DNA of 13,431 nt from NCBI GenBank assembly GCA_025458465.1, contig JALOSK010000024.1, positions 1-13,431 on the forward strand, read 5' to 3'. The translations under genes and the position numbers were made by a program. Shown here piece after piece: positions 1 to 11,802 of the stretch (within the stretch, counting starts at the first letter, position 1; each line of letters opens with the position of its first letter). Source of the DNA: Sandarakinorhabdus sp. (GTDB lineage Bacteria; Pseudomonadota; Alphaproteobacteria; Sphingomonadales; Sphingomonadaceae). The notes below the pieces were generated by a model. It saw nothing but the letters and a program-made list of their open reading frames with translations. It had not been told where the DNA came from and searched no databases.

Positions 1-129
1 CACCTTCCAGCGCTCGCCTTCCTGCACTTCGCGATGGTAACGCTCTTCGTTGGGATAGATATGCTCGTCCATGAAGGCGCGCAGCTTTTCGATCAGGCCT
101 TTGGTCTTGTCGCTATATTCGAAATGCAT
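1..129 (-). CDS. Acyl-CoA dehydrogenase family protein, N-terminal fragment (runs off the window)
   Basis: Only the first 43 codons are inside the window; the gene continues past base 1. The visible protein starts [20 protein letters not shown] and continues with [15 protein letters not shown], the usual N-terminal helix of the ACAD10/11-like group of acyl-CoA dehydrogenases. Those are cytosolic FAD enzymes that introduce an alpha-beta double bond into acyl-CoA thioesters. The ATG at 129 is preceded on the minus strand by a purine-rich AAGGGGAAGG, a good ribosome binding site, which fixes the start. The FAD-binding and catalytic parts lie outside, so substrate cannot be judged. It is the last intact gene on the left side of the repeat region and may belong to a degradative or lipid-metabolism block further left. 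Confidence 0.8.
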
Positions 130-302
130 GGCGCGCCTTCCCCTTGTGTGAATTACTGCATGTTGCAGCGCACAGGCTGTCACGCCTGACCCTGCTTGGC
201 CACTGGCAAAAAGAAAAGAGCGGGAAATTGCGGAGATTGCGCGCAGCCGGGCGTGATGGACTGGTGCGCGACGCAGTCGGCGGTGAACTGGTCTCTCCCT
301 GA

Positions 303-490
303 TATTCCCTGTTATTTGCTTATTCTGTAGCTTTCGACTGGTCGGCAGTGACCGGGTTGCGCCAATAAACGCAGACTTATCCGTGGATTAGGGCAGCGGT
401 TGACTATCGTTGGGGTTGAATTCCCTATCGCGATAACAGGGAATTCCAATCTCAATAACAGGGAATTTAGTCCGCAGAACCGGGAATCCG
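303..490. repeat. AACAGGGAATT repeats in direct and inverted orientation
   Basis: This stretch has no credible gene but repeats a short word. Plus-strand copies of ATAACAGGGAATT lie at 433-445 and 455-467, 22 bp apart, and a diverged copy ACCGGGAATCC follows about 21 bp later (480-489). Minus-strand copies lie at 303-317 and 418-426. The 418-446 segment is nearly palindromic: GAATTCCCT and AGGGAATTC arms around a self-complementary ATCGCGAT. Spacing near two helical turns suggests protein-binding sites on one face of the DNA, for example sites for a recombinase, transposase or replication initiator. The cognate protein is not in the window. Frames reading through here give low-complexity peptides and I do not treat them as genes. 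Confidence 0.7.
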
Positions 491-547
491 GCACCTCCTT
501 TAGCGAGATCCGGGCCAATTCTGGTCGTCATGCCGCATTCACGTGCT

Positions 548-736
548 CAATAGCGGGACGGCTGCGCCGGGAAGTCGGACGAAAATTGCTCATAGCGGGA
601 TCGATTTGCGCGATATCGCGATGGAGTTTCCCAATAGCGGGATGAAAGTGCGGCATGTTAGAATGAAATTTTACCCTTCTGGGACGCGCGATGGTCATAG
701 CAGGACGAAACATGCGCATAGCGGGATGCGCATTGC
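548..736 (+). repeat. Array of nine degenerate 21-bp repeats (core ATAGCGGGA)
   Basis: The tetramer core GGGA, or a one- or two-base variant of it, recurs at 555, 576, 597, 618, 639, 660, 681, 702 and 723, exactly 21 bp apart each time. The best units (548, 590, 632, 716) share yATAGCGGGAyG, often followed by an A-rich then TTGC segment. Other units are diverged but keep the register without any indel. As 21 is a multiple of three, both strands can be read as seven-residue peptide repeats, but composition and lack of a start signal make coding use unlikely. The array ends right at the stop codon of the dehydrogenase fragment. An iteron-like binding-site array at the end of a mobile element is the best guess; a degenerate plasmid-type origin is the alternative. 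Confidence 0.75.
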
Positions 737-739
737 GGT

Positions 740-880
740 TTATCCGTCAATTGCAGGACCAAGATTGGCATGTGCAACGCCGCCGTCGACCGTGATGGTG
801 TCGCCAACGACATAATCGCCGGCGCGGTTCGCAAGGTAAATGGCAGCACCTGCCATATCCTCGTCCACGCCAATGCGCTT
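740..880 (-). pseudogene. Short-chain dehydrogenase/reductase, C-terminal remnant
   Basis: The minus strand encodes the last 46 or so residues of a classical FabG-like short-chain dehydrogenase: KRIGVDEDMAGAAIYLANRA followed by GDYVVGDTITVDGGVAHANL and a TAA stop at 740-742. The TVDGG motif and the preceding helix are typical of the C-terminal end of the family. Everything upstream is missing: the Rossmann TGxxxGIG motif and the Ser-Tyr-Lys active site, roughly 200 residues. Homology stops abruptly at about 880, where tRNA sequence begins. No enzyme can be made from this; it is a truncated gene at a recombination junction. The coding frame stays open a little way into the tRNA part by chance. 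Confidence 0.8.
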
Positions 881-960
881 TGCCGGAGTGGTCGATAGCG
901 ACGGTCTCGAAAACCGTTGTGCCTTTACGGGTACTGTGGGTTCGTATCCCACCCTTTCAG
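881..960 (+). pseudogene. Degenerate tRNA-Ser(CGA) lacking the 5' acceptor strand
   Basis: The D-arm region (882-899, GGAGTGGTCGAT loop) is followed by an anticodon stem ACGGT/ACCGT (901-905, 913-917) around CTCGAAA, giving anticodon CGA for serine. A long variable arm follows with a GTGCC/GGTAC stem (919-923, 930-934), as expected for tRNA-Ser, then a T-stem GTGGG/CCCAC (936-940, 948-952), a 3' acceptor strand CCTTTCA and discriminator G at 960. The seven bases before the D-arm (TGCGCTT) do not pair with the 3' strand and instead match the dehydrogenase remnant. The T-loop reads TTCGTAT, with T at the nearly invariant A58, and one D-stem pair is mismatched. A functional tRNA is unlikely. It looks like an attachment-site scar. 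Confidence 0.75.
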
Positions 961-8201: not shown

Positions 8202-8822
8202 ATGAGCGCACCGCCATTGACTGTGCTGGCCGTGCCGGAACACGAAGCCGCGGTGATCCGGGCAGCCGTTCGCGCCGCCGATGTGGCCTTGCTGGGCCCC
8301 GGCTATCGCCTTGCCGTTGCGGATGATGTGCCGGGACTGTTGGACTTGCTGTCAGACCCGGCCGTTTCTGCGCCGATCTATGATCTGCCGCGCCCGTTCA
8401 CGGCAGCGGTGATCGGTTCGTGGGTGGCCGAGGCGCAGGCGCGCCAGGCGCGGGGGGAGGCGGTGCTGGCGGTGAGCGTGGATGCCGATGGCAGGCTGTC
8501 GGGCTATAGCTATTTCACCGTCTGGCCCGAACGGTCGGCGGCCGAGATTGGCGGGGCCCAGCGTGCCGACCGCCAGAATCAGGGCGTGGGCAAGGCCGGT
8601 GCGGCACGCAGCTTTGGCTGGATGTTCGAGCATCTGGGTGTGCGCCTGATCGGGTTGACCGCCGCGATCGACAATGTGCGATCGGCGCGGGTGATCGAGG
8701 CAGCGGGTTTCGTGGCGATGGGCGAACGCGAAAGCCGCCGGCCCGATGGCAGCGTGCGCCTGTCGCGATACTGGGAGCTGACGCGGGACCAATGGCGGGC
8801 GCAGCAGGCGGCGGCGCCGTGA
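8202..8822 (+). CDS. GNAT-family N-acetyltransferase
   Basis: A 206-residue protein. The acetyl-CoA pyrophosphate-binding loop is NQGVGKAGAARSF at about residues 126-138 (R/Q-x-x-G-x-G/A type). It is followed by a C-terminal half typical of RimJ/RimL-like and aminoglycoside-type GNATs: LIGLTAAIDNVRSARVIEAA, then GFVAMGERESRRPDG. It should transfer an acetyl group from acetyl-CoA to an amine; the acceptor is not predictable. The start is the ATG at 8202, with GGAGAGGACGGG directly upstream; a longer reading frame from 8010 has a non-protein-like extension and is rejected. It ends only 6 bp from the convergent nnrS stop. Its link to either neighbouring group is unclear. Confidence 0.85.
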   Translation: MSAPPLTVLAVPEHEAAVIRAAVRAADVALLGPGYRLAVADDVPGLLDLLSDPAVSAPIYDLPRPFTAAVIGSWVAEAQARQARGEAVLAVSVDADGRLSGYSYFTVWPERSAAEIGGAQRADRQNQGVGKAGAARSFGWMFEHLGVRLIGLTAAIDNVRSARVIEAAGFVAMGERESRRPDGSVRLSRYWELTRDQWRAQQAAAP

Positions 8823-8828
8823 AGATGA

Positions 8829-10037
8829 TCAATCGGCGGCTTTGGTCTGGCCCAGAAAGAGCCGGCCATAGCCGAGTGCAAAGCCGAGGAAGGCAATGAT
8901 CCAGGCAGCACCGGCCAGTTGATACAGAGGCATTCCGATGTCGGGCCACAGCCCGCCGCCCAACCGCGTCAGCACCGCAACCAACAGCGCCGCATAGAGC
9001 ATCACCGTGCCCGGCCCGGCGTGCAGCGGCAGGTTGCTGTGACCCAGCGTGGCGCGGCTCATCACCGCCAGCGTCATCAGGCCGATGGCGCCGGCCATCC
9101 ACAGGTGCAGCGCCGCCCGCCCGCCGATCAGGCCGGGGGAGGCCGCCTCTGCCGCCAGGGCAATCGCACCCAGCGGCACGAAGCCATAGGCGATGTGGAG
9201 CACGAACAGCAGCGGTTCGGCTGTCGTGCGCAGGCCCTGCCAGCGGGCCAGCCGGGCGAATTGCAGCCCGCCGGCCAGTGCCAGCAGCATGGCGGTGGGC
9301 AGGCCTTCGGGGGCGACGATCCAGGCCAGCAAGCCGGCGCCAAGACCGGCCAGCGCGATCAGATCAAAGCGTTGCATCGGTGCCGCCGGCATCGCACCGC
9401 CGGCCTTGGCCGTAACCAGCCAGTTGCGGGTGAAGGCCGGGATGATGCGGCCACCGATGAAGGCAATCAGCATCACCGCAGCGCCCAGACCCAACCGCAG
9501 GCCATGGCCGGACGCCGTCAGCCCTGCCGCCGCCTGCCAGTGAAACAGCCCATTGCCGGCGATGAACAAGCCGAGAATGGCGACCACCGCGAGATTGCGG
9601 TGATTGCCGCCCGCGATGATCTCCCGCGCGATGAACGCCGCCAATGCCAGCGGCATGGCCAGATCGATCAGCGCCACCAGCAGCGCCGGCAGCCCTGCCG
9701 CGACCAGCACCGCCACGCGGCCAGACAGCCACAGGGCCGCCAATGCCATCAGTGGCCAACCGCGCAGCCGGGGCCGCCCGGTCCAGTTCGGCACCGCCGT
9801 GAGCAGGAAGCCGGCGATCACCGCCGAGAGATAGCCGAACAGGAATTCATGCGCGTGCCAGGCCGGCGGATCAAAGGCGATGGGCAGCGCCAGCCAGCCG
9901 GCCAGCAGCCCGATCCACAGCGCCATCGCCAGCGCCGCCCACAGGCTGGCCGCCAGGAAGAAGGTGCGGAACCCCCAGTCGAACAGCGCCGGCCAGCGCG
10001 GGCCGGCTGCAGTGGGGGTGGCAATGGTGATGGTCAT
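8829..10037 (-). CDS. nnrS: NnrS family protein (haem- and copper-containing membrane protein)
   Basis: A 402-residue, very hydrophobic protein with about 12 predicted membrane helices, the length and layout of NnrS. Family landmarks include WHAHEFLFGYLSAVIAGFLL near the N-terminal end, a GGRIIPAFTRNWL segment in the middle and MTLAVMSRATLGHS near the C-terminal end, with conserved histidines. NnrS relieves nitric oxide stress in several proteobacteria, is typically controlled by NO-responsive regulators, and is often beside denitrification genes. The start is the ATG at 10037, with only a weak ribosome binding site. An FNR-type box lies 34 bp upstream, but no -10 is seen at class II spacing in this direction. 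The gene is divergent from the HPP-CBS gene and convergent with the acetyltransferase. Confidence 0.9.
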   Translation of the reverse strand: MTITIATPTAAGPRWPALFDWGFRTFFLAASLWAALAMALWIGLLAGWLALPIAFDPPAWHAHEFLFGYLSAVIAGFLLTAVPNWTGRPRLRGWPLMALAALWLSGRVAVLVAAGLPALLVALIDLAMPLALAAFIAREIIAGGNHRNLAVVAILGLFIAGNGLFHWQAAAGLTASGHGLRLGLGAAVMLIAFIGGRIIPAFTRNWLVTAKAGGAMPAAPMQRFDLIALAGLGAGLLAWIVAPEGLPTAMLLALAGGLQFARLARWQGLRTTAEPLLFVLHIAYGFVPLGAIALAAEAASPGLIGGRAALHLWMAGAIGLMTLAVMSRATLGHSNLPLHAGPGTVMLYAALLVAVLTRLGGGLWPDIGMPLYQLAGAAWIIAFLGFALGYGRLFLGQTKAAD

Positions 10038-10064
10038 CGGGTGATCCGATCGGCGTTGAATGAA

Positions 10065-10078
10065 TTGATATTAGTCAA
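10065..10078. promoter_or_regulatory. FNR/ANR/DNR-type box in the nnrS - HPP-CBS divergent gap
   Basis: TTGATATTAGTCAA differs from TTGAT-N4-ATCAA at one position. Its centre (10071.5) is 32 bp from the centre of a weak -10 (CATCAT, 10101-10106) on the plus strand, the class II FNR geometry, putting a start near 10113 for the HPP-CBS gene. On the minus strand the same spacing falls on the nnrS start codon with no -10, so direct activation of nnrS would need other spacing. Confidence 0.75.
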
Positions 10079-10174
10079 GTGGAAGCGGCATTTGACCCCG
10101 CATCATCCCCTAGTCGGATTGCGGGCAACGCTGCTGTGTCGATAAGGCCACCGCTGGCTTCATGCGGAGACGAC

Positions 10175-11341
10175 GTGGCTGCTGACGATCCTTTCCCCCG
10201 CTGGTTGCGGGCGTTCGGCCCGGCCATGGGACGGCCGGCAGCCGGTGAGATGCTGCGCGCCGCGCTGGGGGCCGGTCTGGCGCTGGCCGGATCGGCGCTG
10301 CTGCTGGATGCCGTGGGCGGGCAGGTGGCGTCACCGATGCGGCCCGGCCTGATCGCGCCACTGGGCGCATCGGCCTTCCTGTTGTTTGCCGTGCCCAATT
10401 CGCCGCTGGCGCAGCCGTGGTCGGCGCTGGTGGGCAATGGCGTTTCGGCCGCCGTGGCGGTGCTGGTGCTGGGTTTGGGGCTGCACACCGGGCTTGCCGC
10501 GGGCCTTGCCGTGTGCGGTGCGATGGCGGCGATGGCGGTGGTGCGGGCGATGCATCCGCCCGGCGCTGCGGTGGCGCTGGCCACTGTTCTGATTGCTGGC
10601 GGCGGCACGCCCGTGGGCTTCGATTTCGTGGCGGTGCCGGTGCTGCTTGATACGGCCCTGCTCGTGCTGTTTGCGCTGGTGTGGAACCGGCTCACGGGCC
10701 GGCGCTATCCGTTCCGGGTGGCGGCCAGCGCGCATGGCACTGCCGATCCGCTGCCACAGCAGCGCCTGGGGCTGACGGCCGAGGATCTGGCGGCGCTGCT
10801 GCAACGCACCAACCAATCGGCCAATATCGGCGCGGAGGATCTGGGTCGGCTGCTCGCCGCGGCCGAGGCAGAGGCCGCGCGCCGGCGTTTTGGTGCGCTC
10901 ACCTGTGCCGATATCATGTCGCGCGATGTGGTGACGGTGGCGGCCGACGCATCACTGGCCACGGTGGCGGCGCTGTTCCGCCAGCATCGGTTCAAGACAT
11001 TGCCGGTGGTGGATGGCGATGGCTGGCTGGAAGGCATGCTGAGCCAGACCGATTTCGTCGCTGCCTGGCCGGAAGCGGCGCCGCTGCACGCGCGGGCCGG
11101 GGCGGCGCTTGGCCGGCTGATGGGGCGTCCGCCGGCCCAGGCGGCGCGTGACGTGATGGTACCGGCCCGCAGCGTCGCGCCCAATGAACCGGTCGGCATA
11201 TTGGTGGAATTGCTCGCGGATGGCGCGCTGGAAGCCGTGCCGGTGGTGTCCAGCCGGCGGTTGGTGGGCATCGTGACGCGGTCGGACTTTCTGGCGCTGC
11301 TCACCCAGCGGCGGCTGCTGCCAGAGCCGCCAACGGCCTAG
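10175..11341 (+). CDS. HPP-family membrane protein with C-terminal CBS pair
   Basis: A 388-residue fusion. The N-terminal part (about residues 25-190) is an HPP domain with several membrane helices and the signature MHPPGAAVALATVL near residue 126. The C-terminal part has two CBS motifs, about 244-299 (ADIMSRDVVTVAADASLATV) and 322-379 (GALEAVPVVSSRRLVGIVTR), which usually sense adenine nucleotides. HPP proteins have been linked to nitrite transport in plastids and cyanobacteria, which fits the nnrS neighbourhood, but transport here is inference. I chose the GTG at 10175 because GGAGA lies 4 bases upstream; the frame stays open to a GTG at 10079 at the very edge of the FNR box without a ribosome binding site. 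Its TAG shares the palindrome CTAG with the convergent gene. Confidence 0.85.
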   Translation: MAADDPFPRWLRAFGPAMGRPAAGEMLRAALGAGLALAGSALLLDAVGGQVASPMRPGLIAPLGASAFLLFAVPNSPLAQPWSALVGNGVSAAVAVLVLGLGLHTGLAAGLAVCGAMAAMAVVRAMHPPGAAVALATVLIAGGGTPVGFDFVAVPVLLDTALLVLFALVWNRLTGRRYPFRVAASAHGTADPLPQQRLGLTAEDLAALLQRTNQSANIGAEDLGRLLAAAEAEAARRRFGALTCADIMSRDVVTVAADASLATVAALFRQHRFKTLPVVDGDGWLEGMLSQTDFVAAWPEAAPLHARAGAALGRLMGRPPAQAARDVMVPARSVAPNEPVGILVELLADGALEAVPVVSSRRLVGIVTRSDFLALLTQRRLLPEPPTA

Positions 11342-11802
11342 GGCACCCAGCCGTGTGAACCGGCGACGGCCCCCGCCGTGGCGATCAGGCCGCCTAGCGA
11401 CAGCACGACATGCAGGATGCGCATGCGCCCCAGCGTGATGAAGCCGCCGCCACGCTTCAGCATTGGATGGATGATCAGCGGTTCAGCGACGAACAGGATC
11501 AGCATGAACGCCAGCCATACCAGCAGCATCGCCGACATCCACCAATAGGCCGGATCGGCAAAGCGCCACCACAATTCCATCCGCCACGTCATCCAGAAAC
11601 CGCTGGCACCAGCCAGCAGCACCCAAGCCATGGCCTGCGGGGCAAAGCGGCCTTCGATGCGGTGGAATTCGGCGATCTGGCGATCGGGCGGCGTGGTGGC
11701 GGCAATCGCCGGCAGCAGCACCAGCGTGACGAACCATACGCCGCCCATCCAGGCCAGCACTGCCGCCACGTGCAGCGCGCGGGCGACGATCAGATCATCC
11801 AT
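11338..11802 (-). CDS. CopD-like small four-helix membrane protein
   Basis: A 154-residue integral membrane protein with four predicted helices: about residues 8-30 (ARALHVAAVLAWMGGVWFVT), 55-72, 87-108 and 127-147. The helix-1 histidine and WxGG pattern resemble CopD/DUF-type proteins that may bind haem or copper. A family-like cytoplasmic motif FHRIEGRFAPQA follows. Similar small proteins occur near nnrS in denitrifiers, so a role in NO or low-oxygen physiology is likely but unproven. The ATG at 11802 has AGGAAAG 8 bases upstream. The promoter is unusually clear: an FNR-type box at 11860-11873 and a TATGAT -10 at 11832-11837 at exactly class II spacing. Its stop overlaps the HPP-CBS stop at CTAG (11338-11341). 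Confidence 0.8.
   Translation of the reverse strand: MDDLIVARALHVAAVLAWMGGVWFVTLVLLPAIAATTPPDRQIAEFHRIEGRFAPQAMAWVLLAGASGFWMTWRMELWWRFADPAYWWMSAMLLVWLAFMLILFVAEPLIIHPMLKRGGGFITLGRMRILHVVLSLGGLIATAGAVAGSHGWVP

Follow-up and report, generated by a model that had tools for sequence, protein, structure and literature searches.

What is an array of nine GGGA-like cores, spaced 21 bp apart, doing at positions 548-736 (plus strand) of a Sandarakinorhabdus sp. contig? The contig (G000:C334) was analysed at its full length of 13,431 bp, hereafter called the window, and belongs to an incomplete genome of 374 contigs totalling 2.5 Mb, with a completeness of 75.92% and contamination of 2.26%. An initial annotation of this DNA proposed a set of iterons or transposon-end binding sites, but comparison with other genomes and viral contigs places the array beside the attachment site of a large serine recombinase instead. 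We consider it on balance probable that it is the distal of two repeat arrays (array 2) on the P' side of that site, that the site belongs to a phage-derived integrative element which uses tRNA 3' CCA ends, and that the repeats are binding sites. As judged by sequence comparison, there is a fixed order of attachment core, palindrome and 21/22-bp array, followed in a few loci by a GGGA array, together with frequent nearness to recombinase and ParB-methylase modules and crossover at a tRNA end in two genomes.

Periodicity of the GGGA array

The 21-bp periodicity exceeds what is expected by chance. Autocorrelation of 548-736 gave an identity of 0.482 at lag 21 against 0.257 +/- 0.035 in shuffled sequence, and 0.537 at lag 42; none of 2000 dinucleotide-preserving shuffles matched the lag-21 value, whether at that lag or at any other between 3 and 59. 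When all 189-bp stretches of the window were compared at lags 15-30, array 2 scored best (0.494), the runner-up being a stretch at 9555 with 0.481 at lag 27. Tandem Repeats Finder called no 21-bp repeat at 548-736.

All nine cores lie where they had been placed, at 555, 576, 597, 618, 639, 660, 681, 702 and 723. Exact GGGA occurs at 555, 597, 639, 681 and 723, that is, in 42-bp steps, and the alternate slots carry the weaker forms CGGA, GCGA, AGAA and AGGA. The consensus of the nine slots is about CATAGCGGGAYGAA. Conservation is concentrated in columns 3-13 of the 21-mer, where the consensus is about ATAGCGGGAYG and the mean pairwise identity is 0.65 against 0.26 in shuffled sequence; the remaining ten columns are near random, with a mean of 0.34.

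An attachment half-site between host DNA and the arrays

The window begins with the 5' end and upstream region of a host gene on the minus strand (1-235; start codon at complement 127-129), an acyl-CoA dehydrogenase according to a reading of the translation, without a search. This flank has a DNA match in all 24 genomes of the genus, the source genome included. The match stops exactly at 235 in six relatives (G001, G011, G003, G010, G014 and G020) and in a second copy within the source genome, and at 69-231 in the other best matches. Shortly after this junction, on the plus strand at 262-295, lies a conserved block that looks like the attL (left attachment site) of a large serine recombinase element, consisting of the core TGGTGCG (262-268) and the P' half-site GCAGTC...GTCTC (273-295). 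The pattern GCAGTCN{4,12}GAACN{1,3}GTCTC matches the source genome only once, at this half-site.

The half-site is followed by an inverted TTCCCTG motif (305-311, minus strand), the remnant of a TTCCCTG..CAGGGAA palindrome; 33 of 43 loci have TTCCCTG at the corresponding offset, against a control mean of 0.08. The proximal array of AACAGGGAA repeats (array 1; 421-486, plus strand) comes next, with an inverted TTCCCT at 421-426, AACAGGGAATT at 435 and 457 and AACCGGGAA at 478, in steps of 22 and 21 bp, and then array 2.

In three relatives (G011, G003 and G010) and on contig C347 of the source genome the same host gene is followed by a tRNA-Thr whose 3' end, GCACCA, faces the gene. The TGGTGC of the window core fits insertion at this tRNA, and tRNA-Thr is thus the candidate target of the window element, whose other end is not on the contig. 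The second copy of the host region lies on C347 (G000:C347:1276-1509, between tRNA-Leu and tRNA-Thr), is 88% identical to window 1-235 and may reflect strain mixture or duplication.

A recombinase search across relatives gave no match in the window and one in the source genome (contig C127, 37% over query residues 87-212). Because the contig has neither recombinase nor ParB-methylase, we call the window copy a relic. This agrees with the initial annotation, which saw no cognate protein in the window, and with our reading of the list of open reading frames.

A conserved block from core to array in other genomes

The AACAGGGAATT repeats of window 435-486 also lie beside the GGGA array of a second genome of the genus, G008. 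We searched more widely with the pattern AACAGGGAATT-N{6,14}-AACAGGGAA, which occurs in seven of 149 family genomes, every one with a 22-bp period, and in 17 viral contigs, two of which are simple GGAACA-type repeats of period 20. Although such patterns are open to periods of 17-25 bp, the period is 21 or 22 bp in all seven family-genome matches and in 15 of the 17 viral ones. A looser pattern found matches in the order (11 of 296 genomes) and in the class (13 of 289), with the source genome included in both counts. Reversed patterns, used as controls in the family, order and class scans, gave nothing among the matches listed.

We collected this block from 47 loci in genomes of Alphaproteobacteria and in viral contigs (46 and L281, after excluding the simple repeats L104 and L112 and the overlapping L163, L176, L179, L180, L181, L184 and L186). 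It runs in a recurrent order from a TGGYG core through CAGTC, GCGAACC, GTCTC and the TTCCCTG..CAGGGAA palindrome, then over about 80 bp to TTCCCT and two to five AACAGGGAA-like units spaced by 21 or 22 bp. Among 43 loci (two with short flanks and two near-duplicates being set aside), these features are found at the expected offsets in 19 to 36, with control means below 1; only the GAACC word (17 loci) and a fifth unit (two loci) fall below that range. Unit spacings were 21 bp in 60 cases, 22 bp in 47, 20 bp in six and 23 bp in three, counts that are not independent evidence of the period since only 20-23 bp was considered, unlike the searches with an open gap described above, which do provide such evidence. 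The distance from core to array is 162-166 bp in 21 of the 47 loci and 174-177 bp in five, including the window and G008, and these two hand-grouped classes differ by one helical turn.

Array 2 is much rarer. A two-unit pattern with up to two mismatches matched two of 60 relatives, namely the source genome and G008, and the 21-bp unit with up to one mismatch was found in one of 397 family genomes, the source genome itself. The G008 array (L020, about 9010-9178, minus strand) keeps the 21-bp step over eight or nine slots, with different spacers. Within 600 bp after array 1 (less at locus ends), GGGAY recurs in 21-bp phase five times in the window, five in G008, four in G755 (L281), a genome from another family of the class, and three in the viral contig L108, counts that none of 400 shuffles reached for any of the four; in the other 41 of 45 loci (two with fewer than 150 bases after the array being left aside) the count is at most one. 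The first two of these comparison loci, G008 and G755, were found through array-2 patterns, and L108 independently of them. The order in G755 is core, palindrome, array 1, array 2 and ParB-methylase; this locus is rich in GGGAY, periods 17 and 19 also score 3 there, some GGGA cores (read by eye) are about half a period out of phase, and the reversed pattern used as control in the class scan that led to it matched 18 of 289 genomes. Taken together, the constancy of the array-1 period and the GGGA arrays with other spacers in three more loci bear out the earlier suggestion that phase was retained while the intervening sequence diverged.

In viral GGGAY scans ranked by profile, the ten best inspected loci without a known array were tight tandem or coding-like repeats, except G755. 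A BLAST search of 400-960 against plasmids gave matches mainly in the tRNA part. Arrays with a CCATAGCGGGACG-like unit spaced by 22 bp were observed at nine places of one Prevotellaceae metagenome-assembled genome (L005-L007, L009-L011, L013, L014 and L016), with similar ones in one Treponema and one Prevotella contig (L012 and L017); the contig scan behind them was made with a pattern spaced 22 bp, nine of its 14 matches fall in that one genome, and it is uninformative for 21 bp.

Crossover at tRNA 3' ends

In two genomes the junctions locate the crossover point. Contig C92 of G008 carries a second recombinase copy (83% identical) and the same arm, which then enters tRNA-Leu (ACTGCGTGGTGCG|GCC); on contig C88 the arm reads ACTGCGTGGTGCG|CGACGCAGTC and runs on into the arrays. 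Of the two sites on the Sphingobium plasmid pTomTYG42a, the one at tRNA-Gln reads GATAGTTGGCTG|GGGCGG. The other reads GATAGTTGGCTG|AGGAACCAGTC..., after which come what is left of a palindrome, then AACAGGGAA repeats and a ParB-methylase. Up to the core the two sites are identical in 200 of 212 columns, past it in 74 of 239. The core is thus the tRNA 3' end in both genomes, and the comparison of junctions indicates crossover at the 3' CCA end with the arrays on the P' side. Both cases look like tandem elements at a single tRNA, the upstream recombinase end in Sphingobium being read by eye.

The gene order is the same in a 42-kb island of pTomTYG65a, and no core or array was seen before its methylase. 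On a Sphingobium megaplasmid (L297; AP027319 156000-205000), islands apparently lie in tandem at tRNA-Gln, and the two attachment cores there flank genes for ectoine synthesis. L298 (AP027331, about 400000-443000) spans 42 kb from ParB-methylase, DUF5681 and terminase to DUF3489, DUF2924 and recombinase at tRNA-Gln, with annotated steroid and bile-acid enzyme genes inside. At L152 (G014:C163), tRNA-Leu(GAG) and the same host gene as in the window are directly preceded by the 3' end of a recombinase gene with 69% identity over 35 residues; tRNA-Leu(GAG) may be used as a target in two relatives.

Genes beside the block

The gene that ends beside the arrays in G008 was identified, through its relatives, as encoding the C-terminus of a large serine recombinase. 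Within the DNA examined per locus, the 3' end of such a gene lies to the left of the block, 330-520 bp away, in 11 of the 47 loci, and a recombinase faces the block from the right in four; one locus has both and 33 have neither. Pfam scans of five loci (L107, L109, L111, L114 and L108) put genes for DUF2924 and DUF3489 proteins ahead of the recombinase; for L108 the scan gave DUF3489, and DUF2924 was seen in the survey of neighbouring genes. To the right of the array, a ParB-methylase match is present in 19 of the 47 loci, part of which also have DUF5681 and terminase genes; the ParB-methylase domains of Sphingobium were checked with Pfam for two genes. The place and direction of the array relative to the core are constant, whereas the adjacent gene and its orientation vary: behind the array we find a forward methylase, a reversed terminase (L105, L106 and L110), a reversed recombinase (L114, L164 and L174) or repressor-like genes (L117, L119 and L113). 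Viral contig L111 has two successive modules of DUF2924 and serine recombinase upstream of a single array.

In the recombinase P0001, Pfam recognises the Resolvase and Recombinase domains only, and no zinc ribbon. The C-terminal DNA-binding domain of these recombinases conforms to the ParB-family fold, and for the first recombinase member the HTH_ParB profile scores 17.7 bits, under its cut-off of 22.6, and TIGR00180 scores 15.6 against a cut-off of 58.45. The ParB-like helix-turn-helix (HTH) at the recombinase end is a candidate array binder.

We rejected a general link between CAGGGAA arrays and any serine recombinase. A related recombinase was found in 39 of 118 relatives; 40 stretches were taken, and among the 31 with a tblastn match only L062 has a motif downstream, a single one. 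Missing arrays at these recombinase ends would be expected if the ends are attR (right attachment sites). A recombinases-in-trio element was also considered, and was abandoned when the serine recombinase appeared.

Proposed function and alternative explanations

If array 2 belongs to such an attachment site, repeats about two helical turns apart would offer binding sites for a multimeric protein encoded by the element. The bound protein would build a nucleoprotein complex beside the crossover and help to choose between integration and excision. The likeliest binder would be the ParB-like HTH at the recombinase end, followed by DUF3489, a small protein encoded in the same gene cluster; what the window retains is a relic. 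More tentatively, a family of alphaproteobacterial serine recombinases may have gained a ParB-type operator-binding domain together with arm-type arrays (palindrome and 21/22-bp repeats), so that a wrapped or multimeric complex governs integration and excision as in tyrosine integrases, and array 2 would be a second, diverged set of sites for the same or a partner protein. This extension is possible, and we hold it with less than even confidence.

Several other roles for the arrays have to be weighed against binding sites at an attachment site. They could be parS-like targets of the ParB-methylase of the element, directing DNA modification or packaging, since the gene lies to the right of the array in those 19 loci and PMC6536676 places genes of this kind upstream of terminase and restates a proposal in which ParB-like proteins guide modification to sites of the phage genome. 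We regard this as unlikely though worth keeping in mind, because the arrays hold their position and orientation to the core while the genes behind them change. The same constancy, set against a neighbouring gene that varies in kind and direction, speaks against operators through which a repressor of the element would control adjacent promoters. Repressor-like genes do adjoin some arrays (Xre/ImmA in L117, L119 and L113, Xre in L103), but three to nine copies in phase would be a large number for a single operator, which makes this a distinctly unlikely role. Iterons forming the replication origin of an excised circle are a little more improbable still: direct repeats of 21/22 bp resemble the iterons of plasmids, but a fixed distance to an attachment core is unexpected for an origin, and no replication initiator was recognised beside the arrays, either by reading open reading frames or with a profile panel that contains no initiator profile.

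It is very improbable that array 2 is a decayed, functionless tandem duplication whose phase survives because indels are rare. The degenerate alternate slots in the window would fit decay, as would spacer columns slightly more alike than expected (0.34 against 0.26 shuffled, a value that 8 of 5000 shuffles reach), but the cores are conserved next to spacers that are near random, and G008, G755 and L108 show the 21-bp phase in the same position despite other spacers. We reject a coding origin almost outright. A period of 21 would suit a repeat of seven residues (3 x 7), and a 90-codon open frame (543-815, plus strand) spans the array; the matching frames of G008 and G755 hold stops, however, and array 1, its sister, has a period of 21 or 22 bp. 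The segment is therefore not part of a conserved coding gene, the outcome that the initial annotation had named as fatal to its reading.

Relation to known systems

Precedents exist for serine-recombinase integrative elements, for their tandem piling at RNA genes, for ParB-methylase genes beside terminase and for phased sites at tyrosine-integrase cores. According to PMC3783163, serine integrases such as that of a Listeria phage need no accessory proteins or auxiliary DNA and act on sites of 40-50 bp. The present sites share with them the serine recombinase, the crossover core and a P' half-site of about 25-30 bp, and differ in the one or two arrays after the half-site and in the ParB-like HTH that ends the recombinase. 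Phage WO of Wolbachia has a related recombinase (34-42% identity) with an alignable C-terminus (alignment A2) and a methylase/ParB gene in most variants, but no CAGGGAA array in the WO stretch scanned. The ssrA islands of Dehalococcoides, in the sections of PMC3146451 at hand, likewise combine a serine recombinase with a ParB gene and pile up in tandem at the 3' end of an RNA gene; their target is tmRNA, their enzyme is of the CcrB type, and 20-bp att repeats are mentioned there rather than phased arrays.

Tyrosine-integrase systems with directionality factors (RdfS, Apl) also have phased direct repeats at the attachment site to which a helper protein binds, though the recombinase class is another and Apl sites lie one helical turn apart where these arrays are spaced by two. 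The sites of ParB and Noc (parS and the Noc-binding site, NBS) are bound by the same HTH type, and the NBS consensus TATTTCCC-GGGAAATA, as given in PMC7383237, has TTCCC/GGGAA in common with array 1. Here, by contrast, the domain is on a serine recombinase, and the four Noc specificity residues were not seen at the positions aligned by eye.

Searches of an open-access library, which lacks most subscription papers, yielded no account of arrays in phase beside the attachment site of a serine recombinase, nor of such an enzyme carrying a ParB-type domain. Serine integrases are prized, and portrayed, as requiring just two short sites. A conserved fixed-distance array in many alphaproteobacterial genera, with a ParB-like domain on the recombinase, would constitute a second architecture, one in which auxiliary sites are built in, and possibly a new means of direction control. 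The block also provides a searchable attL landmark for prophages and islands whose integration site has not been identified; in PMC6536676, a specific site was predicted for only one of 16 Paracoccus prophages with serine recombinases.

Other features of the window

The tRNA scar next to which the array had been described lies at 881-958 (plus strand), outside array 2, with a truncated gene end in between, and the attachment core of the array is on its opposite side, at 262-268. The intervening segment (759-880, minus strand) is a gene's 3' end, read as that of a short-chain dehydrogenase without a family search, and has DNA matches of 72-85% in relatives. The scar is a degraded tRNA-Ser(CGA) that has lost its first ~10 bases and whose 3' end is altered; an intact gene elsewhere in the source genome (G000:C175) matches it at 91%. 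ARAGORN made no call for it, and Rfam gave three matches in 1-1300, all under gathering scores, one of them tRNA-like (883-960). A dehydrogenase-like gene and tRNA-Ser(CGA) are normal neighbours in G018, in the reverse order; with the intact copy on C175, this marks the scar, on sequence grounds, as a separate event and not the attachment site of the array. The contig may be chimeric.

No transposase was noticed among the open reading frames of the window, which were read without searching an insertion-sequence library. Window 8658-11384, in which NnrS- and HPP-like genes can be read, has an 85% identical copy at G000:C175:14783-17490, about 2.5 kb from the intact tRNA-Ser(CGA).
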